From Paenibacillus phyllosphaerae (GTDB taxonomy: Bacteria > Bacillota > Bacilli > Paenibacillales > Paenibacillaceae): a DNA stretch of 64,000 nucleotides. The notes under the pieces are model-generated. The model saw nothing but the letters and a program-made list of their open reading frames with translations. It was not told the origin of the DNA and searched no databases. The translations under genes were made by a program, and so were the position numbers. Where the stretch lies: the NCBI RefSeq assembly GCF_014192105.1, contig NZ_JACHXK010000025.1:1-64000 (forward strand), written 5' to 3'. Numbering within the stretch: position 1 is the first letter of the stretch; each line of letters opens with the position of its first letter. Positions 35,297 through 55,554 of this stretch are shown piece by piece.

Positions 35297-35968
35297 TTAC
35301 AACAGGTCATCTAGACCAAGTATTTCTACGCTGCCCGGCAGTTGTGGAGAAGATGAACACACGGAGAGCTTGTAATGAGTATTCAGATCATATTGTTTAA
35401 AATGGTAACGCTCTGCCGGCGGATCAAGCGTAATTTCCCCTCCGGGAAGCTTTCGGATTGTGAAGCTTTTTAACGAAAGCGTTAGCCCCACTCCCACAGC
35501 TTTAATATAAGATTCTTTTAATGTCCATAGTTCAAAAAATAGGTTGACCCTCTCATGCTCAGGCTTTTGCCGCAAATCCATTGACTCTTGTGCTGAGAAA
35601 ACTCTGTCGGCCAGTTCCGGGCTTATGGGAACGACTTTCTCAATATCAATGCCTACTGATTCACAGTCAATAATCAATACAACCCACTCACCTGAATGGG
35701 AAATGTTGAAGTGAATTCCTTTCGTATCTGCGAGACATGGTTTTCCGTATTTCGATTTCAGAATGTTTATGCAGCCCGGCGGAACTCCAATACGTTTCCC
35801 GAGCTTTACCCTCGCCAGCACTTCGCCTAACAATGTTCGATACGCGTCTTCTTTTTGCCGGAAACGTTCAACCCGTTCCCTTTGGGATGGCCCAATGCGC
35901 CCGAGTAACGACCGATATCTTTCAGGAGAGATATCTGACGGAAGTTTTAGTGCATAGATTTCTGCCAC
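35297..35968 (-). CDS. Sfp-type 4'-phosphopantetheinyl transferase
   Basis: The protein has the family signatures in order: GKPCLADTKGIHFNISHSG, VGIDIEKV with the metal-binding Asp and Glu, and FFELWTLKESYIKAVGVGL. It transfers the phosphopantetheine arm from coenzyme A to a conserved Ser of carrier proteins, here presumably the two carriers of the same operon. GTG at 35968 gives 223 residues starting VAEIYALKLP, which aligns with the start of Sfp; an ATG at 36037 would overlap the preceding gene by seven bases and add an unrelated leader. It is the last gene of the operon, making the cluster self-sufficient for carrier activation. Confidence 0.92.
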   Translation of the reverse strand: MAEIYALKLPSDISPERYRSLLGRIGPSQRERVERFRQKEDAYRTLLGEVLARVKLGKRIGVPPGCINILKSKYGKPCLADTKGIHFNISHSGEWVVLIIDCESVGIDIEKVVPISPELADRVFSAQESMDLRQKPEHERVNLFFELWTLKESYIKAVGVGLTLSLKSFTIRKLPGGEITLDPPAERYHFKQYDLNTHYKLSVCSSSPQLPGSVEILGLDDLL

Positions 35969-36030
35969 TCTACCCTCACCCTGACTAGTGTTCTGTATCG
36001 CCGTGCCGTGCCCATTCCAAGGCTGCCTTA

Positions 36031-37488
36031 CTACCAAGTGGAGGTAACTATTTTTTTTCGCGTATAAAATTCAAGGCCATCGGTACCATTCGCATGCAGG
36101 TCGCCGTAAAATGACTTCTTCCAGCCCGAAAACGGGAAAAATGCCATTGGAGCAGGCACGCCCAGATTGATGCCAAGCATGCCAGCATCAATCTGCTCAC
36201 GAAACTGCCGTACATGACCGCCATTGTTCGTAAAAAGACAAGCACCATTCGCAAACTCGGACTGGTTCGCCAACACAATCGCTTCGTCAAGCGTACCGAC
36301 ACGGACGACTGACAGAACGGGAGCGAATATCTCATCCTGCCAAATTTTCATTCCACTATTAACATGGTCGAATAGGGTCGGACCCAGAAAATACCCCGGC
36401 CCTTGTGCTGCGGCATCCCGCCTGCCATCACGAACGAGATGTGCGCCTTCCCTCACACCAGTGTCAATGTAGCGAAGTGTACGTTCTTTATGGGATTGCC
36501 GGATAAGAGGTCCCAGAAAAACATCCTTATCAAGCCCATTGCCAATGGTTAGCGCATCTGCAGCTTCCTTTAATTTCTCCACCAGCCGGTCACCGATCCC
36601 GCCTACTGCGAGAACGACAGCACAGGCCATGCAGCGTTCCCCCGCCGATCCAAAAGCGGCGTTGATAATTTGCTTCACCGCGCCGTCCAAATCACAGTCG
36701 TCCATAACAATCGAATGGTTCTTCGCACCCGCAAGTGCCTGCACCCGTTTGCCGTTAGCACTTCCTGTCCGATGCACGTATTCGGCTACCGGCTTGGAAC
36801 CTACGAAAGAGATGGCTGCAATATCCGGATGATCCAGCATCCGGTTGACAACATCCTGGGCTCCATGAACAATGCTAAACACGCCGTCCGGGAGCCCCGC
36901 TTCAGTAAGCAGCTCGGCTAGCCGGTTGGCAAGAAGCGACGCACGCTCCGACGGCTTGAGTACAAATACGTTGCCGCAGGCAATAGCGAGCGGAAACATC
37001 CAGCAGGGCACCATCATGGGAAAGTTAAAGGGCGTAATCCCCCCCACGACGCCAATTGGATACCGATACATCCCCGATTCCACATTGGTTGCAATGTCAG
37101 GCAGCTGCTTGCCCATCAGCAGGGTGGGTGCTCCTGCCGCGAACTCGACGCATTCTATCCCTCGCTGTACCTCCCCGTAAGCCTCGGTATAGCTTTTACC
37201 GTTCTCCAGTGTGATGATTCGAGCGAGCTCATCCCAATGATCGACGAGCAGCTGCTGGAATTTGAATAGAATGCGGGCTCTTCTTGGGACAGGTACCCTG
37301 CTCCATACGCGAAAGGCATCACTAGCCGCATGAACGGCAGCGTCTACATCCTCTGTCGAGGAATGCGGAACATAAGCCAATATCTCCTCACTCGCGGGAT
37401 TATAGACCGGTTCCTTCATAGAGCCTGAGGATCGGACCCAGCGGCCGCCAATATAATTTTGCAACATTTCCACTTGTAGCTTTTTCAA
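36031..37488 (-). CDS. Methylmalonate-semialdehyde dehydrogenase-type enzyme
   Basis: A complete 485-aa aldehyde dehydrogenase. [20 protein letters not shown] and [16 protein letters not shown] are diagnostic of the CoA-acylating MmsA/IolA group, and the catalytic Cys is in GSAGERCMA. MmsA converts malonate or methylmalonate semialdehyde to acetyl- or propionyl-CoA. No inositol or valine catabolic genes are nearby, so its place in this operon suggests making an acyl-CoA or oxidising an aldehyde intermediate of the product. TTG at 37488 with GGGGGTG upstream is the start. The gene follows the BtrH-discoidin gene by 32 bases. Confidence 0.88.
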
Positions 37489-37520
37489 TGTACACCCCCG
37501 GCGTATCTGCTAAATAACAA

Positions 37521-39029
37521 TTAAGCCTCCAACTCCAGGCAGGGGCTTTTTTGAAGAGCCGGATTTATTTCAGTCCGGTCATATAGTCCGATCTCCACAA
37601 TTTCAAATCTGCCCCACTTCATGTTTGCCTCGTGGATAACAAGCCGGAGTCTATTCGTATAGAGCGCATTCTCCAGCTGAATGGACATCGTCTCCATGCG
37701 GTAGGAATCAAATTCATAATCCCCCTGTTCGTATCTCCCCAGATTCCGCCAATTCTCGCCTGCATCATCGGCAGCCTGGACTTCTACAACCGTTACGCCC
37801 AAACTTTGTGAAAATCTCGACCTTATTTCAATGGTATTTATGCGCTGTTTCTCCTGCCATTCAAAGTCGATATACTCGGGCAGTTGTGGATGTTCTGCAC
37901 TTGCATAGATGAGATCCTGATCTTCGTTCACCAGATTGGCAGGACCGTTATGTAAATTCAAGCTTAGACTAGAAGCCGTAATCTCAGCTTGTACGGCACA
38001 GTTGGCCGCGGACTCCGTCTTCGCCCCTGTCACGATGTTTGGGGCAATTCCGGCTAGCAGTTCCAACTCATCAGCCTTAAGCTGCATTAATTTTCCGCAG
38101 ATGGAATCTACGTGCTTGGAGAGGCTTGGGCTCTTCGTTCGCATGATGATATAGTTTCGCAGGGACTGTGCCCGATTCTCGATATCTTTGTACTGCACAG
38201 AGAACTCCATTTCCTTCGGCAGCAGGGACCTTTCTTCTAAAAATTCAATGCGAAGCCGCATGGCAACTTTGTGGTCATAGAGAACGTGGAATGGCCGAAT
38301 ATCAAAATGAATCAGGTTCTGCGACAGCAGGCTCATATAATAGGACAATTGGCTGTAAACCCCGCTGCCGAATACCCAGCAGTGTTTATAGTGTTCAGCA
38401 GGAACATGAACAATACTTACCGGTCGAACACCTTCAATGTAGTCCATCAGCTTCTCACGGATCTGGTCCGGCTTAAATCGAAAAACCTTCTTGCGGGGAG
38501 AAATCAACTCAACGCCTTCCAGCCAGTCATCTCCAGCTCTAACACCAACGTACATCCGGCCCACATCTTCAAAGCTTAGCTCTTCGTAGGAATATTTCTG
38601 ATCCTTAAAGAAATCGGCCACGTGGAATACTCTGCGTTCCCTATCATAGCCAAATATAAAGATATCGTGCAGAAAGTAATTCGTCTGATAGGCCTCCGAG
38701 AGCGGATTATGATAATAATTCCCCAGGAAGTAGACGTAGTTTCCGTTCCCAATGGCTTGGATGATAAAGTTCTCCAACGATCCAGAGGCATCAACCATTG
38801 TCCTGCTCATTCTCTGATAGTAAATGAATGGACACGACTTCCACAGCAGGGAGGTGTTGAAATCTAGCCGGGTCCGATGCACGTTATCCGGCATCTCAAG
38901 CTGACTAAACTCGCTATAAAACCATTCCTCAGCGTCCTCATCATTCAGTACAACGGACAAGAGGTTTGCTATATATGGATACGATGTAATCGGCGGGTAC
39001 TTCATGGCAAGCGTTACCTGATTCTTCAA
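37521..39029 (-). CDS. BtrH-like papain-fold protein fused to a discoidin-like domain
   Basis: The first roughly 340 residues resemble the butirosin BtrH N-terminal family. ENFIIQAIGNGNYVYFLGNYY, then FLHDIFIFGYDRERRVFHVAD, correspond to the His- and Asp-bearing core of that papain-like acyltransferase fold. The N-terminal catalytic Cys seems absent (MKYPPITSYPYIANLLS has none). Residues of about 355-485 look like an F5/8 type C (discoidin) beta-sandwich, for example EYIDFEWQEKQRINTIEIRS and TNRLRLVIHE, a fold that often binds sugars. Two shorter paralogues lie at 45416 and 51462. TTG at 39029 with AGAAGGGGTGG avoids overlap with the MFS gene; a longer frame to 39119 overlaps it. Confidence 0.6.
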   Translation of the reverse strand: MKNQVTLAMKYPPITSYPYIANLLSVVLNDEDAEEWFYSEFSQLEMPDNVHRTRLDFNTSLLWKSCPFIYYQRMSRTMVDASGSLENFIIQAIGNGNYVYFLGNYYHNPLSEAYQTNYFLHDIFIFGYDRERRVFHVADFFKDQKYSYEELSFEDVGRMYVGVRAGDDWLEGVELISPRKKVFRFKPDQIREKLMDYIEGVRPVSIVHVPAEHYKHCWVFGSGVYSQLSYYMSLLSQNLIHFDIRPFHVLYDHKVAMRLRIEFLEERSLLPKEMEFSVQYKDIENRAQSLRNYIIMRTKSPSLSKHVDSICGKLMQLKADELELLAGIAPNIVTGAKTESAANCAVQAEITASSLSLNLHNGPANLVNEDQDLIYASAEHPQLPEYIDFEWQEKQRINTIEIRSRFSQSLGVTVVEVQAADDAGENWRNLGRYEQGDYEFDSYRMETMSIQLENALYTNRLRLVIHEANMKWGRFEIVEIGLYDRTEINPALQKSPCLELEA

Positions 39030-39048
39030 ATTCAGTCCACCCCTTCTA

Positions 39049-40329
39049 TTATCCGATAAATTCCGCACCTGGGACCGGTTCCATCGCTTTCTTCCGGGCG
39101 AGCATTCTATGGACCCCATAATAGCCGATTCCGCTCACCAAGCTTAGTGCTATGTTGACCCCAATCAGCAACTGGTAATTTTGGAACCAGTCATAATTCA
39201 ATCCTCCCGCCACCGAGGCAAACACGCCGCCCAACTGATGGAAGAACAACAGGATGCCTGCTTGAAGCCCGACTGACTTGGTCGACAGGCTCTCGCTGGC
39301 AAGAAGAATGCCTCCTGGTATAGCCCCCAGATAAGTCGCTCCGAAGATAAGCGTAAATAACACCGGAGACCAGTAGAAATGAGAAAATAGTAGAATGAAA
39401 GCAACGGTTCTAATCAGATATAGACAGCTCAATGCAACCGCCCGCGGCATTCTGTCCAACAGCGCTGCAAACACAAAGCCTCCAACAAGCTCAAGCACGC
39501 CCAATATACTTAATGAAGCAATGAACATTGCATGTGAGACGTGTGCTGTTTGCTGAATGGCCATTAAATGCATTTCGACCGTTCCCATACTGAATCCGCA
39601 AGTAAACAAAGCGAATATGACGACAATGATAACAGGGCTTCGCAGCGTGATAAGGAAATCCCGGTTCGCTGTCCATTTAGACTTGCGAATAATTGGTTGT
39701 GCTGCCTCTGCTTCTGACTCTGCCTCTGTCCCTGTCTGAACCTCCGGATCCGAATGCTGCTGCTTCTTTTCCTTGATGATAAAGTAGGTAAGCAGCGTGA
39801 AGAATACACCAACTGCTATAGAAATTCTGTACGCTACCGTCCAAGTAATGACGGAATCGTTAGAAACGAGTAAAGGGGTTAGCAACGCCAATCCAATAGA
39901 GCTTGAACTGCCGATTATCATTAACGCCTTGGCCTTGTGATGCTTGAACCATTGGTTGACCATAACATAACTCGTTGTTGTCCCAATGCCCGCCAGGCCG
40001 CCAAGGACTCCGAAACCGAACATATACCCGACAGGGCTTGGATACAGCACAATTACAGCGCCTGACAGAACACCTAGCAGACTTCCGGCAATCATTGTCG
40101 TCTTATACCCGAATCGATCGGTCAGCCATCCCCCGAAGGGAGCGCATAACGAACCGATAAATATGCTGGCAGACCAAGCATAACCGAGAAATGCACGGCT
40201 TGTTTCCAGGTCATCGGTTATGGGACCTTGATAGTATTGAACGATAATTCTGCCGAGTGATCCCAAAAATCCGAATATCCATAGAAAGCTCACGATAAAC
40301 CAAGCGTACTTCTCCTCTTTGAACCACAT
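39049..40329 (-). CDS. MFS transporter of the OFA/MCT type
   Basis: A 426-aa, 12-span major facilitator with a long charged cytoplasmic loop (KKQQHSDPEVQTGTEAESEA) between the two halves. WSASIFIGSLCAPFGGWLTDRFG forms helix 2 and motif A, as in oxalate/formate and monocarboxylate transporters. In this operon it is the obvious exporter of the product or importer of a precursor. GGGGGAAT precedes the ATG; it follows the sialidase-like gene by 25 bases. Confidence 0.85.
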   Translation of the reverse strand: MWFKEEKYAWFIVSFLWIFGFLGSLGRIIVQYYQGPITDDLETSRAFLGYAWSASIFIGSLCAPFGGWLTDRFGYKTTMIAGSLLGVLSGAVIVLYPSPVGYMFGFGVLGGLAGIGTTTSYVMVNQWFKHHKAKALMIIGSSSSIGLALLTPLLVSNDSVITWTVAYRISIAVGVFFTLLTYFIIKEKKQQHSDPEVQTGTEAESEAEAAQPIIRKSKWTANRDFLITLRSPVIIVVIFALFTCGFSMGTVEMHLMAIQQTAHVSHAMFIASLSILGVLELVGGFVFAALLDRMPRAVALSCLYLIRTVAFILLFSHFYWSPVLFTLIFGATYLGAIPGGILLASESLSTKSVGLQAGILLFFHQLGGVFASVAGGLNYDWFQNYQLLIGVNIALSLVSGIGYYGVHRMLARKKAMEPVPGAEFIG

Positions 40330-40354
40330 GTGAATTCCCCCGCAGCAATAGTAG

Positions 40355-42166
40355 TTACAATCTTAACGGCTGTATGCTAAGAGACTTCAAATAAAAATGC
40401 GACTCCTCAGCAGGAGCGCACACTTCTGGAAGGTCTCCCTCGCTTAACTCTGTATCATAGGTTGGTGTTCTTCTCGCAGCCCCTGTACGAAATAATATTT
40501 TGTCGACCGTCGGGATACTCATTACGAATCGCAACGCCGTCCATTCTTCGTTGGGCATTATTCGAATGAACACTTCATGCCGAGAGGCATCGATTCGGAT
40601 CTCGACGTTAGTCCACTTGCGGGCGCAATCCTCTGCAATTCGTGTTGTACCACTCCCATGCCGGACCATTATTGCACCATCCGGGTACAGGATCATCCGG
40701 AATGCAAGCATCGATTTCGAGTTCAGCACCTCGATTTCCATCCTTCCGGAATGGGCAAGGTCTGTCCTGCAACAGAAGGTAATTTCAACCTTATCATGCT
40801 TTGGAAAGCATCGCTCGGCCTTCGCATAGTCATACGGATCCGTATGCAGAAAAACCATGCATGGCTGCTGCTCCTCTTCTGGAGCCGCCATTGTCACGGT
40901 GGATAACAGCGTACGGTAAATTTGCCAATTCGCAATCAAATTTCCTGCACTGTAAGCATGAAAGTGTTCATCAACCCATTGAACGGTGCGGCTGGTCACC
41001 GGTATCGGTATTCGGCTGACCCATATATCCTCCTTATTCACACAATAGCTAATCCATATCGCTCCATCAGGAGATTCAATGGCGCCTCCTGTCAAGCCGG
41101 TTACATAATTCAAGCCGTAGTACTTATGTTCGCCCGCATACCTTCTTGGCGGAACCTCTCCGCTGACCAGCATCAGCCGGTCAAAGTTCAATCCATCTTC
41201 ACTCGTACTCAATGCGAGCGGCCAACGATGCGTATTATCGAGCGACGGATTATAGATCAGAACGTAATGCCCTTCCGCTATTTGCTGCCCCCATATTTTA
41301 CTTCCCGCCATAATAAGAGAGTCGGCTTCCTCAGTCGGCAGCCATGTCTCCCCGTGGTCAGGGCTTATTGAAGTAAGACTCCATTTCCAGAGCCCGACTG
41401 TATCTCCGTCCGCCAGACGGTAGCAGGACAGCGCCTTGTTCCCTTCAATCTTGTAAAACCCGTCCTGACTCCGATCCTCCTCCCACCATTTGGCTGTCTC
41501 CAGCTTATCCGACAAAAGCTCTTCACAAGCTTGAATAAAACCTCCATCAGGTGAGCTGGTGTACAGGGGATAGCTGGTATTCGTCTCGTTCCATCCTGCA
41601 TGGCTGTTATACCGGATAAAATAGATGGGGTCCAAACGACCATCGGGGTGAATCTCGCGAACCACCCTGCCTATACCCAACCCATCATTAGGCATGACAT
41701 TGTGGTTCGGGCAAATCCCATAGAAGCCCAATGCTAACATTTTATCGCAGCTGGACTTGAAAAACCCCATTCTTTGGTGCATCATTGCATAACTGTCTGG
41801 TGCTAGCGCTTCGGGCCCCTGGTAAATGCCCTCGGGCACCCTATATTCGGGGAAGAGAATAACGGCATCCTCCCAGTGCACACCATCCAGTGACGTGATG
41901 AGGAGAGTTCGGCTGGGAGGCACGTTCTCGCTTACCGGGCAGCTTACATACTGCAAATAATACTTATCTCTCCAATAGGTCAGCAACGGGGCATGATTAA
42001 ACGTCCAACCATATGCATCGCCACCGGCCGGCTGTGCTCGATTTGCTCGTACAGCCTGGAAGTGGTGAACCCCTATGATGGATGCCAGCTGGCCATGATG
42101 GTAATCGATATTGGCTGTTTCCGTCCCCGTATACCGCACCCGTTTACGTTTCGCGTTCAACAACAA
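40355..42166 (-). CDS. Sialidase-fold (beta-propeller) protein, cytoplasmic
   Basis: This 603-aa protein has no signal peptide. Residues to about 420 contain Asp-box-like motifs (SLDGVHW, SPDHGETW, SEDGLNF) typical of six-bladed sialidase-type propellers, and a YYGLNYVTGLTGGAIESPDGAIW stretch. The last 170 residues look like a concanavalin-type beta-sandwich (KVEITFCCRTDLAHSGRMEIEV, then WTNVEIRIDA). It could be a glycosidase or sugar-binding protein, but the classical sialidase Arg triad could not be verified. It sits inside the carrier-protein operon, 23 bases from the antiporter gene, suggesting a glycosylated intermediate. TTG start with GAGGGGG upstream. Confidence 0.65.
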   Translation of the reverse strand: MLLNAKRKRVRYTGTETANIDYHHGQLASIIGVHHFQAVRANRAQPAGGDAYGWTFNHAPLLTYWRDKYYLQYVSCPVSENVPPSRTLLITSLDGVHWEDAVILFPEYRVPEGIYQGPEALAPDSYAMMHQRMGFFKSSCDKMLALGFYGICPNHNVMPNDGLGIGRVVREIHPDGRLDPIYFIRYNSHAGWNETNTSYPLYTSSPDGGFIQACEELLSDKLETAKWWEEDRSQDGFYKIEGNKALSCYRLADGDTVGLWKWSLTSISPDHGETWLPTEEADSLIMAGSKIWGQQIAEGHYVLIYNPSLDNTHRWPLALSTSEDGLNFDRLMLVSGEVPPRRYAGEHKYYGLNYVTGLTGGAIESPDGAIWISYCVNKEDIWVSRIPIPVTSRTVQWVDEHFHAYSAGNLIANWQIYRTLLSTVTMAAPEEEQQPCMVFLHTDPYDYAKAERCFPKHDKVEITFCCRTDLAHSGRMEIEVLNSKSMLAFRMILYPDGAIMVRHGSGTTRIAEDCARKWTNVEIRIDASRHEVFIRIMPNEEWTALRFVMSIPTVDKILFRTGAARRTPTYDTELSEGDLPEVCAPAEESHFYLKSLSIQPLRL

Positions 42167-42189: not shown

Positions 42190-43467
42190 TCACTGCTTCG
42201 CCAGCTCCCCCGGCGGCATCACGCTTGCAGCTCCGCGTATGCCCGGATGGGGAAGTCTCGTCGACAACTTATATACGACGATGGACAGAGCGGTCGTAGC
42301 GATTGCTGTAAGAACCAGCAGGGAATAAACGGGCTGTGACACATATCCGAGCTCCAAACCGAGCTCCGCGATTACAAGCCCCATTAATCCCTTTGCGTTC
42401 ATCAAGCCTCCTAATGCCGATGAATCGCGCCAGCTGTACCCCATTTTGCGCATGGTCAACGAACAACCCAAATATTTGCCGAAGAAAGAAACACCTAATA
42501 GGATGCCAAATGGGATGAGCAATTCGACTTGAAGAAGGGAGCGAAGGTCTGCCTTTAATCCGGCATGCACGAAGTAGACCGGAATAAACAGACTTGTAAC
42601 AAGCCCCTTGAGACGCTCATCGATCATCCGTTGGACCGGCGCCGCATCAGGCATGATCGTACCTAACAGGAAACAGCCTATGACAGAAGTGATGCCAATG
42701 AGTTCGCTCAGCCATGCTACCGACAATATGGCAAGCAGAACGATTCCGAGCATGCCTTCGTTCATCGTGTCCGTGCCTTGAGCTGTACGGACGAACCGGC
42801 GGAGCAGCGGCTTCACAACGACATACAGCATCACAATCATGCCAATCGCCATAAGGATCTGCCCGAATCTGTTCCCGATCGTGCCTGTGGACTGCGTCGC
42901 GGCAATCAGGATCGTCAGCAGAAACCAGGCGCCTAGGTCATCCAGGCTTGCCGCCAGGATGGTCAGCTGCCCGAGCGGGCTGGAATGCAGGTTCTTCTCT
43001 TCCAGGATTCGCGCCAGCATTGGGATTGATGTAATGGACACTGCAATGGCCATAAAAAACGCAAACTGCCCGATTGGAATCCCTGCAGCAAGCGTATCGT
43101 GCAGGTACAATGCGGCGAGCAGCCCAAATGCGAAGGGCACAAGGAAGCCTGCGGCTGTAACCTTGCCAACCTCGAGCAGCGAACTGCTTCTCTTGACATT
43201 CAACTCCATACCGATCAAGAACATGTACAACCCAACGCCTATCGTGCCGATAACGGATAATACGCTCTTCGTTTCAGCGGTAAAGAGGCCGGCCATCAAC
43301 TCCGGGTAGAACAACCCCAGACAAGTCGGCCCCATCATAATCCCGCCGATCATTTCGCCCAGAACACGAGGCATGCCGATGGACAGCATAATCCTTCCCA
43401 TTGCAAAGCATACGATTAGTATGACGACCAAAGATCCGATGGTATCTATAGCTTCTATGCCCTCCAT
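42190..43467 (-). CDS. CPA2-family cation:proton antiporter
   Basis: A 425-aa protein with 12-13 membrane spans of the Kef/NapA group. MPRVLGEMIGGIMMGP in the first helices and LAASLDDLGAWFLLTIL with the paired Asp residues of the ion-binding site are diagnostic. It lacks the C-terminal TrkA domain of Kef proteins. Such antiporters appear in antibiotic clusters as resistance or export aids, and that is the likely role here. It follows the halogenase-like gene by 12 bases. Confidence 0.88.
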   Translation of the reverse strand: MEGIEAIDTIGSLVVILIVCFAMGRIMLSIGMPRVLGEMIGGIMMGPTCLGLFYPELMAGLFTAETKSVLSVIGTIGVGLYMFLIGMELNVKRSSSLLEVGKVTAAGFLVPFAFGLLAALYLHDTLAAGIPIGQFAFFMAIAVSITSIPMLARILEEKNLHSSPLGQLTILAASLDDLGAWFLLTILIAATQSTGTIGNRFGQILMAIGMIVMLYVVVKPLLRRFVRTAQGTDTMNEGMLGIVLLAILSVAWLSELIGITSVIGCFLLGTIMPDAAPVQRMIDERLKGLVTSLFIPVYFVHAGLKADLRSLLQVELLIPFGILLGVSFFGKYLGCSLTMRKMGYSWRDSSALGGLMNAKGLMGLVIAELGLELGYVSQPVYSLLVLTAIATTALSIVVYKLSTRLPHPGIRGAASVMPPGELAKQ

Positions 43468-45414: not shown

Positions 45415-45415
45415 A

Positions 45416-46443: not shown

Positions 46444-47694
46444 CTACCAGTAGAGCTTCATCTCCGAAAGCCGGTTCGAGATCTCGTTCATGATTCTCCG
46501 CTCATCATCCTCATCTCTTGCTTCGAACGTGACGGAAAACCTGATATAGCTGCCGGCTTCGTCCCATGGGACGGTTGATATTAATTTTTCGTGAATCAGA
46601 TACTGAGAGAAGTCCTCTGCGCTGGCAAACGCCGTCCCCCCTTTAACGCCCTTCGGACAAGCGACATATAAATAAAATGAACCTTTGGGTTTCACCACGT
46701 CGAATCCCGCGCTCTGCAGCACGGTTGTCAGCAACTCATGACGGCGTGAATACTTCTCCGCTGTCCGCAGCGTAATTTCCGGATGTTCAAGGCAATAGAC
46801 CCCCGCCTTTTGAATGGCAATGAATTGCCCTGAGTCACAATTATCCTTTACGGATGCCAAAGCCTTAACAACAAGCTCGTTGCCAGCTATAAAGCCGAGC
46901 CTCCACCCTGTCATATTGAATGCTTTCGAGAGCGACTGTACAGAGACCGCGACATCCTTCGCGCCTGGGACAGACAAAATCGATAACGGCTGCTCGCCGT
47001 CAAACATCAACCCGGCATAAGCCTCATCCGAGATAACAATGATGTGATGCTTCTTGCAAAATGCGACGACCTCTTCATAAAACGCATACGTTGCCGTAGC
47101 CCCAGTTGGATTATTGGGGTAGTTAATATACAGCAGCTTTGCACGTTCCAGTACGTCCGCAGGTACGGATTGCAAATCCGGCAAAAAGCCGTTTTCTTTT
47201 ACTAAAGGAAGCTTGACTACTTCCCCCCCAAGCCAGGCTGTGTGCGTAGCCATAACGGGGTAACCCGGGGTCGTAGTCAACAACACATCGCCCGGATTAA
47301 TAAATGCGGCCGGCAGTTGTGCGAGTGCACTCTTCGAACCGATGCAGTGATTGATCTCCGTGCTCGGATTAATCGGGCCTGTTTGAAACATACTCATCAT
47401 GTAATTTGCTGCAGCCGCCTGAAAACTTTCGATCCCGTTGTCGGAGTAGAAGCGGTTTTCCACCTTCTGAGCTTCCTCGCAAAGGACCTGTACGACGCCC
47501 GGATCTGCCATGGCGTCCGGCTCGCCGAGTCCCATATCAATCAATTCGACACCAGGGTTTGCCAGCATAGCCGCGCTGCGTGCACGTTTTATTTTCTCGA
47601 ACTTGTACAGCTCCGTACCTTTGCCAAAGGTATTGCCGCCTATCCGCTCAGCAAACATCTCCTGGATAAAGCTTGTTTCAGTTATGGATACCAT
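46444..47694 (-). CDS. PLP-dependent aminotransferase, LL-DAP aminotransferase-like
   Basis: A full 416-aa class I/II aminotransferase. YPNNPTGA, SDEAYAGLMF and VQSLSKAFNMTGWRLGF give the PLP-binding Asn and Asp/Tyr and the Schiff-base Lys, and RFSVTF holds the carboxylate-binding Arg. The IDMGLGEPD opening and overall sequence resemble LL-diaminopimelate aminotransferase. Inside this operon it most likely makes or consumes an unusual amino-acid building block. GGAGGAG precedes the ATG; spacing to the preceding gene is 24 bases. Confidence 0.9.
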   Translation of the reverse strand: MVSITETSFIQEMFAERIGGNTFGKGTELYKFEKIKRARSAAMLANPGVELIDMGLGEPDAMADPGVVQVLCEEAQKVENRFYSDNGIESFQAAAANYMMSMFQTGPINPSTEINHCIGSKSALAQLPAAFINPGDVLLTTTPGYPVMATHTAWLGGEVVKLPLVKENGFLPDLQSVPADVLERAKLLYINYPNNPTGATATYAFYEEVVAFCKKHHIIVISDEAYAGLMFDGEQPLSILSVPGAKDVAVSVQSLSKAFNMTGWRLGFIAGNELVVKALASVKDNCDSGQFIAIQKAGVYCLEHPEITLRTAEKYSRRHELLTTVLQSAGFDVVKPKGSFYLYVACPKGVKGGTAFASAEDFSQYLIHEKLISTVPWDEAGSYIRFSVTFEARDEDDERRIMNEISNRLSEMKLYW

Positions 47695-47718: not shown

Positions 47719-50691
47719 TCATGATTTAGCAGCTTCTTCGTGCAGCCCTTCAATCAGCTCTTGCCTCTTGATCTTGCCTACCCCACTGCGGGGAATCTGG
47801 TCAATAAACAGGTACTTCTGAGGCAGCTTGAAAGGCGCTAACCGGCTTTGACAAAACTTCACAATGGTTTCCTCTGTTATTGGTTCGTCGACAACCAGAA
47901 AGGCAACCGGGTACTCCGACGTTAGACTGTTGTTTGGTACTCCGACCACAGCGACATCCCGCACTCCGCTCAGCTTTATTAGCACATTCTCAATTTCAAA
48001 CGGATCCACCTTTTTGCCTGCGACATTGATGAGGTCATTGGTTCTCCCCGTCACATATAAGTATCCGTCTCTAATAAAGGCGCGGTCGTTCGTATGATAG
48101 TAGCCATCAGGCGTAATTAATTCTAGAAATGCGATATCCGAGTTGTAATATCCCTTCGCCATGGAAGAGGATTTAATCTGTAAAATTCCCGGCTCATCCG
48201 TCAGAATGGTTTCCCCTTCTTCATTCACGATCCGAAGATCCACCCCAGTGATGGGTCTTCCAAGCGAGTCCGGATGCTTGCTGTCTTTGAAGGTCGCCGG
48301 TCCAGCCTCGACGATTCCGTAATAATCGCATATCGTAATGCCTGCTCTTTCCCGGAATGCATTTTTGATATGATAATGAAGCGGCGCAGAAGAAGAGAGA
48401 CAGAGCCGCAAACGGTGATTGTCCGCACAGAACTTCGATTTGCTCAGCATGTCGAATACGACCGGGAAGGCAACAAAAACCGATATATTCTCGTTCGTTA
48501 CGGTTTCCCAGATCGATTTTGGCGTTAATTGTTTATGAATGACCAATTGCGCTCCCGATAGGAATACGGACAGCATCGATGTGTTGAACGCCAGCCCATT
48601 GTGGAATAGAGCCGTACACAGCACCACGTCATTCTCCGTAATAGAAGCCGCCTTCGCCCAATTCGTTGCCGCATTCAAAACCGCCTCATGGGTGAACATT
48701 AGGCATTTGGGTTTGCCTGTCGTTCCTGAGGAAAAGCGGCAGGTTGCAACATTAACAAAGTGGTCTGCATCGAAGCTCTCGTATACATTGGAGAATACGT
48801 CAATCTGAATCTCGTTTGTTTTCTCCAGCCTGATAATAGAGCCTAGATGGTAATGATCCCGAATAAATGCCACTTCATCTTGTGTGAAGGTATGATCAAT
48901 CAGCATCGGAATATGGCCCGATAGTAACAATCCGTAATAGGTGAACAGGTAAACAGGATGGTTCCTCATATTGATCCCGACAGGATAATCGTTGGGAATC
49001 TCCTGCTTGAACCGCTCGGCATAGCGTTCAATCTGTTCCCAGAATTCTGCATATGTATATGACTCATCCCCGAACTTCAGGGCTAAGCGGTGTCCAAAAC
49101 GCGCTGCGCGCTCCTTCAAAAGCTCGATAATCATCTGGTTTTGTTCTCCTTGGAACCCGTTTCGGTCTGATACGTTAGCATTAGGCAGATTCAATTGATA
49201 CCGGTCCTTCTTTACTTTGAAAGCAGAATTGGTATCTTCTTTTCCCAGAACACCGCAGTATATCATCTCAACCTGAACGTCAAGTCCGAACAGGTCACGC
49301 GCCTCCAGATCATAATATCCGCCGATGACAGAGAACCCTAGATTTAACGTCCGGCTTTTCAGATACATCATTTGCCCCAATGCGCCTGCGTCAATCAACC
49401 GCTGTTGTGTTTTCCACAGGGCCCCTTCCGCGATATTCGTCCGATCGGCAGCGAAGAAAAATACAACGGAAGAATCATAAACAAAGTCCTGATCCAGACA
49501 TAGCCTGAGCGATTCCGAACGATAATCCCCTTGCTGAATGAGTACTGCGCCAGCTTGATCCACTCGGTACAGACCCGGCGTATAATCTTCGACCGCATGG
49601 ATCACCGTATACAATTGAATGGGGAACTCCATATCGGCGATTAGAGACAGCATTTCCGACAAGTCGCTGCTTGCAATCGGGACGGGCAGGAAGGCCGAAC
49701 ACGATCTGCGTTTGAAGACATGTGCGGATAATTCATCCAGCTTCCATGGAGCCGGCACCTTATACGAAGACTTCCATTCCAGTACAGGAGTGTATGTCTC
49801 CAGCTTAACGGCTTCCTGAATACCGGTGATTGGCGTCCAGTCGAATGTACTCGCCTCTTCCTTACTATTGAAAACGGGACGGCTTCGCGGCTCATCACGC
49901 ATGGCGGTAAATACCGCATCCCGGATAGGTCGCTCCAATGGATGTCGCTTGTTATTCCCAATGGATATAATGCCGACCGGTTCCTCCATGGCATCCAGAT
50001 TCAGCAACGTCTTTAAATACTGGGACCTGCAGTGGGTATAGGCGGAGTACGGCACATCCATTGACGACAAGACCAGCTGGAAATTGGCGAGAATATGTCC
50101 TGTATCAATGTAACCGAACCGGTATCCGCGATAAGAATACTTCCAGCAGCTCCGCCAAGGCACGACGGTGAATATAAGGTAAAAGTTGGCATCGTAATCC
50201 TCCGGCAGTACGGATTCCTTAAGAAGGAAATCATGCTCCAGGTTACTTATGCGGTGTAAAATCGCATTCACGGGCGAATAGTGATAAACACCGGGGACTA
50301 CTCCTTCTACATTGTTAATCACGACATAGACTTCAACCGGGTAGCAAGCACCCGCCGATGGATAAGACCATACCATCTCCGACTGATAGCCATAAAACTT
50401 AACCGACGTGATACTGTAGGAAATGAGCAGAAGCTGCTCGAGCAGCTGGATATTCATTTCGTGCAGCGGAATAATTTCATTGGCTTTCGACATTGTTGTC
50501 TTTAGACTGATATAAGGGCCATCGTAACGTTTGAAGCGTTCGGGACGCGGTGTTTTCATGAAATTTGTACCTACATACTCTTTGTCCTTAAGATTCCGGG
50601 TCAGCTCAAATAAATCCGTCGATCCCTTAATCTGTGTCATAACCGCCCCAGATGACACATACATTGGATTTTCAGCTACCATTTTTTCCAT
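47719..50691 (-). CDS. Twin SagB/nitroreductase - AMP-binding fusion enzyme
   Basis: The 990-aa protein combines three domains. Residues of about 75-280 are a SagB-type nitroreductase fold (SYPSAGACYPVEVYVV and a RFGYIDTGHILANFQLV helix). Residues of about 330-510 are a second one (ALWKTQQRLIDAGALGQMMYL). From about 525 to the end is an acyl/aminoacyl-AMP ligase with FSSGTTGKPK at 653-662, YGIVEAGP, TGRTNDLINVAGKKV and the catalytic Lys in GVGKIKRQEL. SagB enzymes oxidise azolines to azoles with FMN, often as dimers, so the pair could act as an intramolecular dimer. The ligase should load an acid onto a carrier. The start overlaps the aldolase stop (TAATG). Confidence 0.85.
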   Translation of the reverse strand: MEKMVAENPMYVSSGAVMTQIKGSTDLFELTRNLKDKEYVGTNFMKTPRPERFKRYDGPYISLKTTMSKANEIIPLHEMNIQLLEQLLLISYSITSVKFYGYQSEMVWSYPSAGACYPVEVYVVINNVEGVVPGVYHYSPVNAILHRISNLEHDFLLKESVLPEDYDANFYLIFTVVPWRSCWKYSYRGYRFGYIDTGHILANFQLVLSSMDVPYSAYTHCRSQYLKTLLNLDAMEEPVGIISIGNNKRHPLERPIRDAVFTAMRDEPRSRPVFNSKEEASTFDWTPITGIQEAVKLETYTPVLEWKSSYKVPAPWKLDELSAHVFKRRSCSAFLPVPIASSDLSEMLSLIADMEFPIQLYTVIHAVEDYTPGLYRVDQAGAVLIQQGDYRSESLRLCLDQDFVYDSSVVFFFAADRTNIAEGALWKTQQRLIDAGALGQMMYLKSRTLNLGFSVIGGYYDLEARDLFGLDVQVEMIYCGVLGKEDTNSAFKVKKDRYQLNLPNANVSDRNGFQGEQNQMIIELLKERAARFGHRLALKFGDESYTYAEFWEQIERYAERFKQEIPNDYPVGINMRNHPVYLFTYYGLLLSGHIPMLIDHTFTQDEVAFIRDHYHLGSIIRLEKTNEIQIDVFSNVYESFDADHFVNVATCRFSSGTTGKPKCLMFTHEAVLNAATNWAKAASITENDVVLCTALFHNGLAFNTSMLSVFLSGAQLVIHKQLTPKSIWETVTNENISVFVAFPVVFDMLSKSKFCADNHRLRLCLSSSAPLHYHIKNAFRERAGITICDYYGIVEAGPATFKDSKHPDSLGRPITGVDLRIVNEEGETILTDEPGILQIKSSSMAKGYYNSDIAFLELITPDGYYHTNDRAFIRDGYLYVTGRTNDLINVAGKKVDPFEIENVLIKLSGVRDVAVVGVPNNSLTSEYPVAFLVVDEPITEETIVKFCQSRLAPFKLPQKYLFIDQIPRSGVGKIKRQELIEGLHEEAAKS

Positions 50692-51416
50692 TACCCTACT
50701 TCCCCGCGGTTACGACTTCGGTTTACCTTTCTGCACCAATAGGCCCAATACTCTTGAATGGCGGTACGGCCGAAAATGATTTTGCTCTTTACTTTTATTT
50801 CATCGCCTTCAGTCCATTTGTAGGGAACCCCTGCCGATTCAGCAAGCAGCTGCAGACGGCAGGCATTCTCCAACGCAATCGCCCAACAGATGGTCTCGGG
50901 AATGGATTTGCCAACGGCAACAATGCCATGATTTTTTAACAGCATCGTCTTGCTATTGCTCATCGCCTGGGCGACCTCCCGAGCTACTCCAACGTTGGTG
51001 ACGGTGTTGGTCGTTAAAGTAAACCGTGCCGTATTCATAATTGGGGTTGCATCATGTGTGATCGCCCGAAGAGGCAGCTCTGTAGCGCTGAACACCATGG
51101 CATTGGGCGGATGGGAATGGATGAGGCAATTGATATCCTGCCGCATGCGGTAAAGTTCAGTATGCAGAGGCCATTCAGCAGGAACCACTCCGCTGCCTTC
51201 CAGCTTCTCGCCGTCCATACTAATGCGGATGAAATCCTCCGTCGTCGTTTCTTCCCACCCCATGAACGCTCTGCGGATCCAAATATCCCCTTCCTCTGTC
51301 CGGAATGAAATTTGGCCGTTATTAATATCGTTATGACCTTCCAAATACAAGATATGCGAGCCGTATGTTGCATCCTTCCATTTATCCGTGATAGAGACAG
51401 GGGCTTGCATCGCCAT
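50691..51416 (-). CDS. Class II aldolase/adducin-family protein
   Basis: The roughly 241-aa protein has the zinc-binding motifs LIHSHPPNA (two His) and LLKNHGIVAVG (third His) of the class II aldolase/epimerase family that includes fuculose- and rhamnulose-phosphate aldolases and related decarboxylases. It could form or cleave a C-C bond in a hydroxylated precursor. ATG 51416 (MAMQAPV) has GAGGAGG six bases upstream; the earlier GTG lies inside that site. Its stop overlaps the start of the SagB fusion gene, ensuring coupled translation. Confidence 0.88.
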   Translation of the reverse strand: MAMQAPVSITDKWKDATYGSHILYLEGHNDINNGQISFRTEEGDIWIRRAFMGWEETTTEDFIRISMDGEKLEGSGVVPAEWPLHTELYRMRQDINCLIHSHPPNAMVFSATELPLRAITHDATPIMNTARFTLTTNTVTNVGVAREVAQAMSNSKTMLLKNHGIVAVGKSIPETICWAIALENACRLQLLAESAGVPYKWTEGDEIKVKSKIIFGRTAIQEYWAYWCRKVNRSRNRGEVG

Positions 51417-51461
51417 ATCGTTCCTCCTCACATTTCTAGAGCGTTTTATCCAGCACGCCGG

Positions 51462-52463
51462 TCATCGGCTGGTGACGACTTCATTATTTTCTTTCAACAA
51501 CTTCACAAACTCCATCTCCATTTCCTTGACGGAGCTGCACTTGCTAAAGATGACTTCGGCGTTAAGCCTCCCCGTCATCTGGGACTTGAGCAGTAAGATC
51601 CGTATCGTTTCCAAACGCTTCTCACAAGCCCTCAAACGCTCGATCAGTTCCTCGTTCCCACCGGTATAAGACAAATAGCGCCCGAACAGTTGACGGGACC
51701 CCTTCAAAGCCGAAAACGTGTGAATAAGCAAATCTATCAGCTCATTCTGGGATGCAAACTCAACGTAATCGCCGTTAATTAGTTCCTTCACATGGTCATA
51801 AAGAAAGTAGTCTTCTTGCAAATTCGCCACAAACTTGCTGTGCCGGACCTCAATTTCATCCCTGAGCGCCTGTAATTTTTCTGCCGAGACCTGGTTATAC
51901 GCGTAAGTCGATATCGTTCTCTCATCAGGCAGACGTGTAAACGAGTCCCCCTGCTCTTTGTAGCTGTACGTTTGGATCGCCATTTCCAGTTCTTTATAAT
52001 CGTACTCATAAATTTTGAACTCATGGGAAACATCATCCGCAACAAACAGCTTTGTGCCTCCTTCATGCACCTCATACCTAGTCATGACGAGCGAATGAGG
52101 AAAATGGGTTTTGTTGTAGATAGGGTGATGCGGGATGTAGAAGCAATTGGCCGGTACAAACGGGTATCTTCCTTCATCGATCATTCCTCGGATGATGGGC
52201 TCAACTTCTTGAATATCACGCCAGTGCACATTGGTGAGCGTAACGCCAAAATTTTCGAGATCCTGTTCCAATACGAACTCATTGTTAACAAGCCATCTTG
52301 CTTGTTTTTTGACAAAAATGTTATCGAAGGCATAACGCGTATTAATATAAAGATTGTATAGGAGCAGGGCAGCCGGGAAGTTCTCGAGCTCCAGCATGCT
52401 GAGAATTTGATTTTGCCTGCAGTTAATACAATCATGGCTGTTGTCTATTCCGGTAATATGCAC
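51462..52463 (-). CDS. BtrH-like papain-fold protein with intact Cys and His
   Basis: This 333-aa protein begins MHITGIDNSHDCINCRQNQI, placing Cys residues (12 and 15) where BtrH-type acyltransferases carry the nucleophile. THFPHSLVMTRYEVHEGGTKLFVADD supplies the His and a downstream Asp. In butirosin synthesis BtrH moves an acyl group from a carrier protein to an amine. Of three such proteins in the operon this is the only one that keeps a plausible catalytic set, so it is the best candidate for joining the carrier-bound building block to its acceptor. The start is GTG, with AGGATG somewhat far upstream. It follows the DltA-like gene by 62 bases. Confidence 0.6.
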   Translation of the reverse strand: MHITGIDNSHDCINCRQNQILSMLELENFPAALLLYNLYINTRYAFDNIFVKKQARWLVNNEFVLEQDLENFGVTLTNVHWRDIQEVEPIIRGMIDEGRYPFVPANCFYIPHHPIYNKTHFPHSLVMTRYEVHEGGTKLFVADDVSHEFKIYEYDYKELEMAIQTYSYKEQGDSFTRLPDERTISTYAYNQVSAEKLQALRDEIEVRHSKFVANLQEDYFLYDHVKELINGDYVEFASQNELIDLLIHTFSALKGSRQLFGRYLSYTGGNEELIERLRACEKRLETIRILLLKSQMTGRLNAEVIFSKCSSVKEMEMEFVKLLKENNEVVTSR

Positions 52464-52525
52464 GTCTATTCACATCCTAACAGCAGTTTTCGTATGATCG
52501 GTTTTGAAGGCCAAGCAAACTCTGC

Positions 52526-54076
52526 TTACCGGGAGATCTCCTCAACCAATCGTTCGCGCAAGCGCTTAGCATCCAGCTTGCCATTCTGGGTAAGAGGCAG
52601 ACGATCCAGGATGATAATCTTATGGGGGATCATATAGGAGGGAAGGGTTTCGGCCAATCGCCTCTTTATCCTCCGCATAATCTGCTCTTCCTCTTCATCC
52701 TTCCGCTCTGTGACAACCATTGCGGACAGCAGCACGCACTTTCCATTGCGCACCAGCGGCACAACGGCCGCGCCTTTTACTCCTTCAATCTGTTCGACGT
52801 GGAATTGAATCTCTTCAAGCTCAATCCGGTAGCCGTTATACTTGATTTGGGAATCCGCTCTCCCGCAGCAGTACAGCAGGCCATCCTTGATATAGCCAAT
52901 ATCACCGGTGCGATAGGCTCTAACGACGCCCAGCTCCTCATCCTCGATGGAAAAAAAACTTTTTTCCGTTAATTCGTCCTGCCCCAAATATCCTTTGCTG
53001 ACGCCATGTCCCGCGATGATAATTTCTCCTTGCTCCCCTTCGTCTGTCTCCTTCCCATCCGAGTCTACAATGAGAATGCGACTCTTCGGCTTGCATTTCC
53101 CTGCGGGCAGCAGTGAGGCCGCTAGATGCTCCTGGGTGATTACAACCGAGGTCATCGCAACGGTGGCTTCTGTAGGTCCATATGTATTGATCACCTTGGC
53201 ATTAGGGAATCTCTGCATGAGTTTCTTAACGGTGCCGGCGGAGAGCTGCTCCCCGCAAAACAGGAATGTCCGCAGAGACGGGAGCAGCTTGTCGTCAAAG
53301 ATCCGATTCATCAGGCATACTTCCGCAAATGAAGGCGTGGATACCCAGCAGGTCAGTCCCGAATCCTGCAACTCACTGAACATCTCTTCGGGCTGTTCAG
53401 TGAGTTGGCTATTGAGCGCCCACAAGGCAGCCCCTCCGACTAGCGCAGGATAAAAATTCATGACAGAAAGGTCGAAAGAAAATGGCGCCTGATTCAACAC
53501 CACATCTTGTTCGGTAAATGGAAGGGAAGTGTTCATCCAACCTACAAAGCTATCTAAATTATCCGCCGATATCTGTACACCTTTAGGGTCCCCAGTGCTC
53601 CCGGAGGTGTAGATAATGTAAAAGTTATCGGCCCCCTTAACAGAAGCAGGTACTGGGCTGACCGGTGACATACCATCGACCGAATCATGTATAATTTGAC
53701 CGATGCTTGCAACATCAATGATTGGAATCCTTGATTTAAAATTCTCTTGCTTCGCTTCCGCCGCTGATATCATGAGCGCAGCACACGAAGAATCGATGAT
53801 CTTATCAATTCGTTCATAAGGCGTGGATTCATCAATCGGAATATAAGCCCTTCCTGCCAGGGCACAAGCAAGAAGACAAACAGGCAGTTCCACCTGCATA
53901 TGACCGTAAACGATAATCGGAGGTCCCGAGGAACCAAGCTTATCTATAAGCCAAGCTGAGAGAGCAGTGGATTGCCTCCAGAGCTCACCGTATGTAAGGG
54001 CTCCCCCTTGGGTGATATAGGCAATGGAATCCGGATAATTACCGCAACGCTCCTGAATTTGCTGCAATGTGTTCAC
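52526..54076 (-). CDS. DltA-like D-alanine-type adenylation enzyme
   Basis: The roughly 516-aa free-standing adenylation enzyme closely parallels DltA, the D-alanine:carrier ligase of teichoic-acid modification: IIVYGHMQ, YIIYTSGSTGDPKGVQIS, NQAPFSFDLSVMNFYP, FLFCGEQLS, INTYGPTEATVAMTSV, KYNGYRIELEEI and the catalytic Lys in TQNGKLD. The Cys of FLFCGE corresponds to the DltA Cys linked to preference for D-alanine. No DltB, DltC-like lipoteichoic machinery or DltD is nearby; the partner is the carrier encoded immediately upstream. GTG at 54076 with GGTGGGGGA gives a DltA-like length; a TTG at 54115 would overlap the carrier gene. Confidence 0.88.
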   Translation of the reverse strand: MNTLQQIQERCGNYPDSIAYITQGGALTYGELWRQSTALSAWLIDKLGSSGPPIIVYGHMQVELPVCLLACALAGRAYIPIDESTPYERIDKIIDSSCAALMISAAEAKQENFKSRIPIIDVASIGQIIHDSVDGMSPVSPVPASVKGADNFYIIYTSGSTGDPKGVQISADNLDSFVGWMNTSLPFTEQDVVLNQAPFSFDLSVMNFYPALVGGAALWALNSQLTEQPEEMFSELQDSGLTCWVSTPSFAEVCLMNRIFDDKLLPSLRTFLFCGEQLSAGTVKKLMQRFPNAKVINTYGPTEATVAMTSVVITQEHLAASLLPAGKCKPKSRILIVDSDGKETDEGEQGEIIIAGHGVSKGYLGQDELTEKSFFSIEDEELGVVRAYRTGDIGYIKDGLLYCCGRADSQIKYNGYRIELEEIQFHVEQIEGVKGAAVVPLVRNGKCVLLSAMVVTERKDEEEEQIMRRIKRRLAETLPSYMIPHKIIILDRLPLTQNGKLDAKRLRERLVEEISR

Positions 54077-54104
54077 AACTGTTCCCCCACCCACAATTTT
54101 TCCG

Positions 54105-54380
54105 TTAACTGACAACTTCCGACAATGCGGACAACTTCCCCATCACCTGGTGATAAATCTGATCGACGGTGGACAGATTCTCTAGCAGTATTTCATCCTC
54201 ATCAAAACTGATATCAAACACTACCTCTAGCATGACGAGAAGCTCCATCGTTTTCATTGAGGCCATGCCGATTTCGCGCAAATCTACATGGGGGGAAATT
54301 TCATTCTGCAAGTCCAATACTTCTTTCACTTTGGCTATAATTTTCACCTTAACCGCTGTGTTTTCCGACAAAATCATCAC
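54105..54380 (-). CDS. Acyl/peptidyl carrier protein (carrier 1)
   Basis: The 91-aa protein is an acidic four-helix carrier with VDLREIGMASMKTMELLVML; Ser41 of IGMASM is the phosphopantetheine site. It is the first gene of the operon, 28 bases before the DltA-like ligase, which presumably charges it. It is not especially DltC-like in sequence. Two adjacent ATG codons follow GGGAGTG. Confidence 0.88.
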   Translation of the reverse strand: MMILSENTAVKVKIIAKVKEVLDLQNEISPHVDLREIGMASMKTMELLVMLEVVFDISFDEDEILLENLSTVDQIYHQVMGKLSALSEVVS

Positions 54381-54750
54381 TCCCGCAAAGACGTATGAAC
54401 CCTTCCTCTTTCCCTCTTCCGTTACAAATTACACTTTATTTGCCGTTTTATGGTTATTTCTAATTTCTATATTACTGAGATATCACTCATCTATCATCAC
54501 CCCTAAAGGGTGAATTTGTCGGACTTGCAATCCCGCTGCACCCGTGCAACAGCCTTTAATTAGAACGTTGATTAGAATTAATGAAAGTTGACACTCATTG
54601 GACTGAATGATAAATTTAAAAAAATAAAACATATAAATATTATTTAATTAATATATATATTAACAATTAGCTATGAAGCTATTTTTATATTCATAAAATA
54701 TAAATCACAATAGTTTGTCCATTTACATTTCTCAGAGGGGGCTTCTAGAA
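54381..54750. promoter_or_regulatory. Divergent control region of the biosynthetic operon
   Basis: This 370-base AT-rich region separates the operon from the divergent LuxR-type gene and contains no gene. It holds TCACCC-N5-GGGTGA (54497-54513) and TGCACCCGTGCA (54537-54548), both candidate binding sites for the regulator, and a long A/T tract next to the regulator start. Confidence 0.5.
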
Positions 54751-55554
54751 ATGCTATATCCACATCTAGACGAAGAGACTCATGTACGTTCTTGGCTTAC
54801 GATAGATGATATTTTGCCAGAGCAGCTTGATAGCTGGAATCATCGGTTCCATACAGCCGCCCTATCCGAATATGGCGACAATCTGATCGGCTTCACCTCA
54901 GACCCATCTTTTGAACTTCTCGTACAAGTCGCACGGGAGAATCTTCAAGACCTTTCATGCTATATACCGGTTCCGTTTTTTCTAATTCTGGTGGACTGTA
55001 GTGGTGTCGCCCGTCATATTCAAGGACCAGACAACGTGCTTGCAACCTTGCAAGGAGAAAACATTGGAATTGGTACACGCTTTAGTATGGAGAGCTTTGG
55101 CATCAACGCTATCTCTGTTGCAATGGAGACGAAGATGTTGGTTTTATTGCGGGGACCTGAACACACGCCAAAGTTTTTCTCCCAATGGACCTGCATATGT
55201 TCACCAATACAGATTGATAATGAAGTGTGGGGTTACCTCGATTTGTCCTTTAGCGATAAGGTCGTGGAGAATTTTGCAACCGCTTTAGTTTCCACTATTA
55301 CCAGGAATATGGCGTGGAGTTTTAAGCAAAAGCACCCCAAAATCGACAAGCACACATTTTTAAATAAATGCGATGCGTATAAACTCACAAACAGGGAAAA
55401 AGAAGTCGCTTTTCTATGGTATTACAGTATGACACGATCCCAAATTGCCAAGACCCTTCATCTTTCAGAAGATACCGTAAAAACGCATATCCGAAACATT
55501 TCATGCAAAGCAAATGTGAGAGGACGCTCCTGCTTCCGTGAAAAATTCTTATAA
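54751..55554 (+). CDS. LuxR-type regulator with AcoR-like GAF domain
   Basis: From ATG 54751 (CAGAGGGGG upstream) the roughly 267-aa protein has an N-terminal GAF domain like that of sigma-54 activators such as AcoR: ARHIQGPDNVLATLQGENIG, then GTRFSMESFGINAISVAMET and FSQWTCICSPI. The C-terminus is a LuxR/GerE helix-turn-helix (KLTNREKEVAFLWYYSM, then IAKTLHLSEDTVKTHIRNI). There is no AAA+ domain, so it should act with the main sigma factor. It is divergent from the operon and likely activates it in response to a small ligand. A TTG at 54715 is a weaker start. Confidence 0.85.
   Translation: MLYPHLDEETHVRSWLTIDDILPEQLDSWNHRFHTAALSEYGDNLIGFTSDPSFELLVQVARENLQDLSCYIPVPFFLILVDCSGVARHIQGPDNVLATLQGENIGIGTRFSMESFGINAISVAMETKMLVLLRGPEHTPKFFSQWTCICSPIQIDNEVWGYLDLSFSDKVVENFATALVSTITRNMAWSFKQKHPKIDKHTFLNKCDAYKLTNREKEVAFLWYYSMTRSQIAKTLHLSEDTVKTHIRNISCKANVRGRSCFREKFL

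Follow-up and report, generated by a model that had tools for sequence, protein, structure and literature searches.

An operon in the genome of Paenibacillus phyllosphaerae raises the question of how carrier-bound building blocks could be joined where no standard bond-forming domain is encoded. The locus lies on contig NZ_JACHXK010000025.1 (assembly GCF_014192105.1), of which positions 1 to 64,000 were analysed (this 64,000-nucleotide stretch is referred to as the window). Fifteen consecutive open reading frames (ORFs) occupy positions 35297-54380 of the minus strand, with neighbours spaced by −71 to 62 bases (overlaps of at most 71, gaps of at most 62), which bears out the coordinates and the gaps of about 60 bases or less given in a preliminary description of this DNA. 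That description had also remarked on missing condensation (C), ketosynthase (KS) and thioesterase (TE) domains, and Pfam, listed at E≤0.01 and used together with NCBIfam for family assignment, reports none for the 15 proteins. Established at the level of sequence are a conserved operon, two carriers, the BtrH-like protein BtrH1 with an intact predicted triad, a phenolic-type halogenase, a fusion of a SagB-type oxidase with an acid ligase (SagB-AMP) and a DltA-type ligase. We put at about 0.6 the probability that the operon is a C-domain-free thiotemplate cluster whose product is a small halogenated acyl-amide or ester; the building blocks would probably be linked by a cysteine acyltransferase in place of the usual condensation domain. 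The operon and its divergent regulator comprise the following genes:

35297..36037, minus: phosphopantetheinyl transferase (PPTase), Sfp type (PF01648, 72.8 bits)
36031..37488, minus: CoA-acylating (methyl)malonate-semialdehyde dehydrogenase type (MMSDH; TIGR01722, 604.5 bits, cut-off 448.5)
37521..39005, minus: BtrH2-like protein without the catalytic Cys, with a C-terminal F5/8 type C domain (PF00754, 30.4 bits; alignment)
39049..40329, minus: major facilitator superfamily (MFS) exporter (PF07690, 131.8 bits)
40355..42166, minus: BT_1020-type sialidase-fold propeller with carbohydrate-binding module (CBM; PF24067, 348.9 bits; PDB 5mqr, BT_1020, 471 bits)
42190..43467, minus: CPA2-type antiporter-like membrane protein (PF00999, 160.8 bits; under the TIGR00932 cut-off)
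43480..45129, minus: FADH2-dependent phenolic-type halogenase with Lys92 (CtcP 451 bits, PltM 392 bits)
45151..45414, minus: carrier protein ACP2 (PF00550, 33.9 bits)
45416..46426, minus: BtrH2, conserved relative without the Cys-His-Asp triad (alignment; profile match to the intact family)
46444..47694, minus: LL-diaminopimelate aminotransferase-type enzyme (PRK06290, 668.6 bits, cut-off 585)
47719..50691, minus: SagB-type tandem nitroreductase/AMP-forming acid ligase fusion (TIGR03605, 147.8 bits, cut-off 78.4; PF00501, 182.8 bits)
50691..51431, minus: class II aldolase-family enzyme (PF00596, 130.7 bits)
51462..52463, minus: BtrH1, CtaG/CcbD-like putative cysteine acyltransferase, C15-H123-D143 (13-sequence alignment; structural model)
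52526..54115, minus: DltA-type alanine-carrier ligase (TIGR01734, 564.7 bits, cut-off 559.85)
54105..54380, minus: carrier protein ACP1 (PF00550, 36.5 bits)
54715..55554, plus: divergent GAF/LuxR-type regulator (PF00196, 42.6 bits), 334 bases from the ACP1 gene

These assignments agree with the preliminary description for the PPTase, the aldehyde dehydrogenase, the two transporters, the halogenase family, the carriers, the aminotransferase, the aldolase, the ligases, the propeller and the LuxR-type protein.

Conservation of the cluster

A gene-neighbourhood search, which the preliminary description had suggested, recovered the core set in six other genomes. The full core is present in seven genomes including the window's own (G000, G023, G269, G346, G431, G434 and G448), among them Paenibacillus curdlanolyticus YK9 (G023) and Paenibacillus sp. 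MMS18-CY102 (G346), and an eighth genome (G071) has a shorter module. Because the core recurs in nearly identical order in the six others, the operon is more than a chance association. Stretches of 34 to 40 kb were compared for each relative. Common to 7/7 full clusters are genes for the MMSDH, propeller, BtrH2, aminotransferase, SagB-AMP fusion, aldolase-family enzyme, ACP2, halogenase, ACP1, a BtrH1-type protein and the MFS exporter. Measured against the window proteins, the halogenases are 59-65% identical, the SagB-AMP fusions 48-53%, the aldolase-family enzymes 65-68%, the aminotransferases about 67% and the MMSDH copies of the six other clusters 66.7-80.5% (one a cut copy), and the carrier serine is kept in ACP2 (8/8 clusters) and ACP1 (7/7).

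The distribution is narrow. The halogenase was found at E≤1e-60 in 4 of 394 genomes of the family (G000, G269, G023 and G346), with none in the 21 further genomes of the genus (1/22, its own), and a scan of named bacterial genomes gave 23 halogenase loci, of which only those of MMS18-CY102 (L039) and P. curdlanolyticus YK9 (L040) hold the rest of the core. Among 392 genomes of an order-level sample, 12 matched the SagB-AMP fusion at E≤1e-90; seven carry it in full length (the window's own, G431, G448, G434, G269, G071 and G023) and five have the SagB half or the AMP half only. In a phylum sample of 398 genomes the window's own genome alone scored. Of 59 relatives, two have the aldolase-family enzyme at E≤1e-30 (the window's own genome and G023).

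Around the core, the gene content varies. Five of the seven full clusters (window, G269, G431, G434 and G448) include the antiporter-like gene; G346 has a cut homologue at the edge of its stretch, adjoining a LuxR gene 26% identical to that of the window, and the corresponding edge of G023 lies outside the compared stretch. A metallo-beta-lactamase-fold gene is present in 6/7 full clusters, the window being the exception, and the DltA-type ligase and the PPTase were seen next to the core in the window only, with no counterpart in the stretches compared for the six others. Two full clusters (G023 and G346) add a type I polyketide synthase (PKS) and a gene read by eye as an alpha/beta thioesterase, which has no NCBIfam match at 1e-10; the absence of KS and TE is therefore not a trait of the cluster family. 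The G071 module groups BtrH2-like, ACP2-like, aldolase and SagB-AMP genes and adjoins FabG-, FabA-, ketosynthase-, acyltransferase- and carrier-type genes, and neither the halogenase nor this type of aminotransferase was seen in its stretch. The latter gene group (L060:4785-16906), which we take to resemble aryl-polyene-type clusters, also includes a stand-alone 3,4-dihydroxy-2-butanone 4-phosphate synthase (RibB).

Predicted acyl transfer without a condensation domain

The preliminary description counted three BtrH-like proteins. Three acyltransferases are not supported: the Cys-His-Asp triad is intact in one, BtrH1, and the other two (BtrH2 and the F5/8 protein) lack the cysteine. All three fall below the gathering score of BtrH_N (PF14399; 29.7), with 26.2 for BtrH1, 17.9 for the F5/8 protein (37521) and no hit for BtrH2 (45416), and nine BtrH-like proteins of relatives score at most 24.4 or give no hit. 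C15, H123 and D143 of BtrH1 are invariant in 13/13 aligned homologues of the intact type. The structural model of BtrH1 has a CcbD/CtaG-type fold over most of the chain, its best matches being CcbD, AziU3 and CtaG (identity to CcbD is 11% over aligned residues), which supports the earlier proposal of BtrH-type acyl transfer as a predicted activity of this one protein. BtrH2 still matches the profile of the intact BtrH1-type family, and its R14, Q122, E123 and G140 are invariant in 7/7 full clusters. The gene of the F5/8 protein, listed to 39119, probably starts near 39005 at an ATG inferred from the translation, because the listed start falls within the MFS gene; with this start the 71-base overlap vanishes.

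The SagB half of the fusion resembles the tandem nitroreductase 3eo7, BmdC and McbC, and passes TIGR03605 in the L040 copy as well (133.6 over 78.4). The Lys-Tyr pair is catalytic in azoline oxidases, and the WKYS motif of the SagB half is kept in 8/8 clusters. The AMP half is closest to acyl and aryl acid ligases and, in an alignment with four DhbE-type proteins, shows DhbE's His-Asn pair, which binds a 2-hydroxyl, in 8/8 clusters. No characterised SagB-ligase fusion was found in the literature and database searches made. At three loci (L015, L016 and L017), SagB-type oxidases that stand alone and share 38-41% identity with the SagB half lie beside long ORFs resembling adenylation (A) domains.

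The halogenase, whose presence the preliminary description had proposed, is by sequence of the PltM/CtcP phenolic type with a predicted catalytic lysine. It matches the tetracycline 7-halogenase CtcP over residues 3-537 (451 bits), PltM (392 bits) and PltA (83 bits), and its K92, present in 7/7 full clusters, aligns with K87 of PltM, where the K87A variant is reported as inactive in the part of the source covered (PMC6424973). Five actinobacterial loci (L018, L019, L020, L021 and L023) each hold three to five ORFs like the window halogenase. The aldolase-family enzyme retains the class II aldolase metal ligands in 8/8 clusters. Its PDB matches are led by three entries named only ‘aldolase’ (86-87 bits), followed by NovR (74) and Mlr6791 (65), and fuculose-phosphate aldolase entries reach 26-63 bits (up to 63.4; the E. 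coli-type 1fua series 39-43), so that a NovR-like role is possible. The DltA-like ligase aligns closely, by eye, with the B. subtilis-type DltA (3e7w) in the substrate region; neither DltB nor DltD, the partners of DltA/DltC in the Dlt teichoic-acid system, is found among the 15 operon genes.

Taken as a pathway, the SagB-AMP fusion, the aldolase-family enzyme and the aminotransferase would together produce a ring-bearing acid, oxidise it and attach it to ACP2, with the halogenase chlorinating the electron-rich ring. In this strain ACP1 may be charged with alanine, or a small amino acid like it, by the DltA-type ligase. The cysteine of BtrH1 would accept the acyl group from a carrier and hand it on to an amine or alcohol, so making the bond normally left to a C domain, in the way envisaged for CtaG and CcbD. 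The F5/8 protein and BtrH2 may serve as non-catalytic partners, and the product would be exported via the MFS and antiporter-like proteins.

Most likely the operon works by C-domain-free thiotemplate assembly with a papain-fold acyltransferase, a known principle with precedents in closthioamide and celesticetin. Assembly by an undescribed mode is not supported: CtaG has been proposed for similar chemistry in the part of the closthioamide source covered (PMC6772006), and CcbD is a comparable enzyme of celesticetin. The closthioamide cluster (CtaG/CtaE/CtaH/CtaI) is NRPS-independent, i.e. needs no nonribosomal peptide synthetase (NRPS), and shares two free carriers and an acid ligase whose predicted substrate is an aryl acid, as far as that partial source goes, and the CtaG structure resembles the BtrH1 model. 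In contrast, the covered part of that source does not mention a halogenase, SagB, class II aldolase or diaminopimelate-pathway enzyme for cta, and Pfam shows no counterpart of CtaC (thioamide synthetase), CtaD (ATP-grasp) or CtaJ (transglutaminase) among the 15 operon genes. CcbD and butirosin BtrH share the fold of a carrier-dependent cysteine acyltransferase (PMC10318531, in part), but their acceptors are sugars or aminoglycosides, none of which is evident in the window operon. The acid branch of clorobiocin and novobiocin (NovR/CloR) shares, as a general idea, a class II aldolase-family decarboxylating enzyme, an acid ligase and a halogenase, whereas the window has an aminotransferase of the diaminopimelate type, a SagB fusion and free carriers, and its NovR match is distant. 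BmdC of bacillamide and McbC of microcin are SagB-type nitroreductases with the Lys-Tyr pair that oxidise azoline rings (PMC8795117, in part), but the window SagB is a tandem nitroreductase joined to an AMP ligase within a single protein. No description of this cluster was found in the open-access literature searched; the combination of genes, the module with the SagB-ligase fusion and the degenerate BtrH2 partner are new to us.

Proposed source of the acid, possible target and rival readings

Both aminotransferases tested pass the PRK06290 cut-off (the L040 copy with 672.4). Enzymes of this type occur at E≤1e-150 in 17 of 59 related genomes, 15 of them without the full-length fusion, and the cluster aminotransferase is 60-66% identical to those of the 15 cluster-free genomes; the single match in G000 and in G023 is the cluster copy. 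Seven cluster and four cluster-free enzymes differ consistently at eight positions, with 187 positions the same in all eleven. In G071 a DapB gene (L061:663-1499; 160 bits over 122) directly follows SagB-AMP, with a 29-base overlap as listed; a second DapB elsewhere in that genome is stronger (267 bits), and nine other genomes tested have one DapB each. The carrier-aldolase-SagB/AMP module lies beside the LL-diaminopimelate aminotransferase in seven clusters and beside the extra DapB in the eighth, and because these are two different enzymes around tetrahydrodipicolinate, a building block derived from this compound is proposed. The aminotransferase or DapB would supply the cyclic imine, which SagB would aromatise as its relatives do azolines; the aldolase-family enzyme would then decarboxylate or oxidise it, the ligase load it, the halogenase chlorinate it and the cysteine acyltransferase couple it.

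A glyceraldehyde-3-phosphate dehydrogenase (GAPDH) gene lies between the PKS and the core in G023 (L013:7368-8393) and G346 (L047:9634-10659). The two copies share 96.7% identity with each other, 67.7-69.5% with the GapA of housekeeping type in four cluster-bearing genomes and 52% with that of G269; at E≤1e-160 exactly these two of 394 family genomes have it, and the window cluster has none. Extra GAPDH copies reportedly serve as self-resistance in pentalenolactone producers. By analogy, the position of the gene within two clusters suggests that the product of this branch may hit GAPDH, the extra copy being a possible self-resistance gene. The combined proposal, that the BtrH2/ACP2/aldolase/SagB-AMP module makes a carrier-bound pyridine or hydroxypicolinate-type acid from tetrahydrodipicolinate and that the product of the P. 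curdlanolyticus branch hits GAPDH, is speculative and rather unlikely to hold as a whole. Weighing against the diaminopimelate part are the divergence of DapB and its origin from one genome, the poor resolution of the aminotransferase tree and enzyme substrates assigned from sequence.

The acid could instead be of the hydroxybenzoate type, derived from an aromatic amino acid in a clorobiocin-like manner: the aminotransferase would give an arylpyruvate, the aldolase-family enzyme would cut it as NovR/CloR do, the AMP domain would load the acid and the PltM-like halogenase would chlorinate it. Among the PDB matches of the aldolase-family enzyme NovR ranks fourth, CloR/NovR turn a prenylated arylpyruvate into a hydroxybenzoate (PMC13111500, in part), and the phenolic-type halogenase and the DhbE-like pair of the acid ligase fit such a ring. 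Against this route, the aminotransferase passes the LL-diaminopimelate model, resembles the enzymes of cluster-free genomes and is not of aromatic type, SagB would have no clear job on an already aromatic ring, and NovR is outscored by the ‘aldolase’ entries with a modest margin over the fuculose aldolases; this route is unlikely, if not greatly so.

As for the acceptor of BtrH1, it would be a sugar or aminosugar if the operon resembled those of butirosin or the lincosamides, with the F5/8 domain and the sialidase-fold protein binding or trimming it. BtrH is an ACP:aminoglycoside acyltransferase (PMC10318531, in part), the best structural match, CcbD, is known in complex with methylthiolincosamide, and the F5/8 domain and the propeller-CBM protein of 7/7 full clusters point the same way. 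Pfam finds no glycosyltransferase among the 15 proteins, so that the glycosylated product considered earlier is not supported, no aminosugar or cyclitol gene was recognised in the operon, and the F5/8 domain is restricted to the window member among the BtrH-like proteins tested by Pfam; we regard a sugar acceptor as improbable. The propeller protein, in which no signal peptide is seen by eye, is presumably cytosolic. Equally doubtful is that the operon is an accessory set whose carriers prepare only a side unit for a large NRPS/PKS product encoded elsewhere. The SagB-only relatives beside A-domain-like ORFs in three genomes, the PKS adjoining the core in two clusters and other long A-domain ORFs in the genome (e.g. 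3602 residues on contig C16) argue for it, but the operon has its own PPTase, exporters and regulator, and 12 flanking ORFs scanned hold no NRPS or PKS domain. These flanks (MFS, hydrolase, LysR, flavodoxin-like, xanthine/uracil permease, aldo-keto reductase and others) look unrelated to the operon. Elsewhere in the window, a 2957-residue minus-strand ORF (2652-11525) has a signal-like N-terminus and a local GC content of 54-61%.

To our knowledge, few C-domain-free carrier-assembly pathways are known. Read as a C-domain-free thiotemplate cluster, the operon would extend this mode of assembly to a family of syntenic clusters from Paenibacillaceae and one related family, and allows testing, with a defined set of genes, how a papain-fold enzyme takes over from a condensation domain and why a degenerate partner is conserved beside it. 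The GAPDH gene of two clusters makes a directly testable prediction of a target, and the diaminopimelate link, if true, would connect lysine biosynthesis with a halogenated aromatic acid by a new route.

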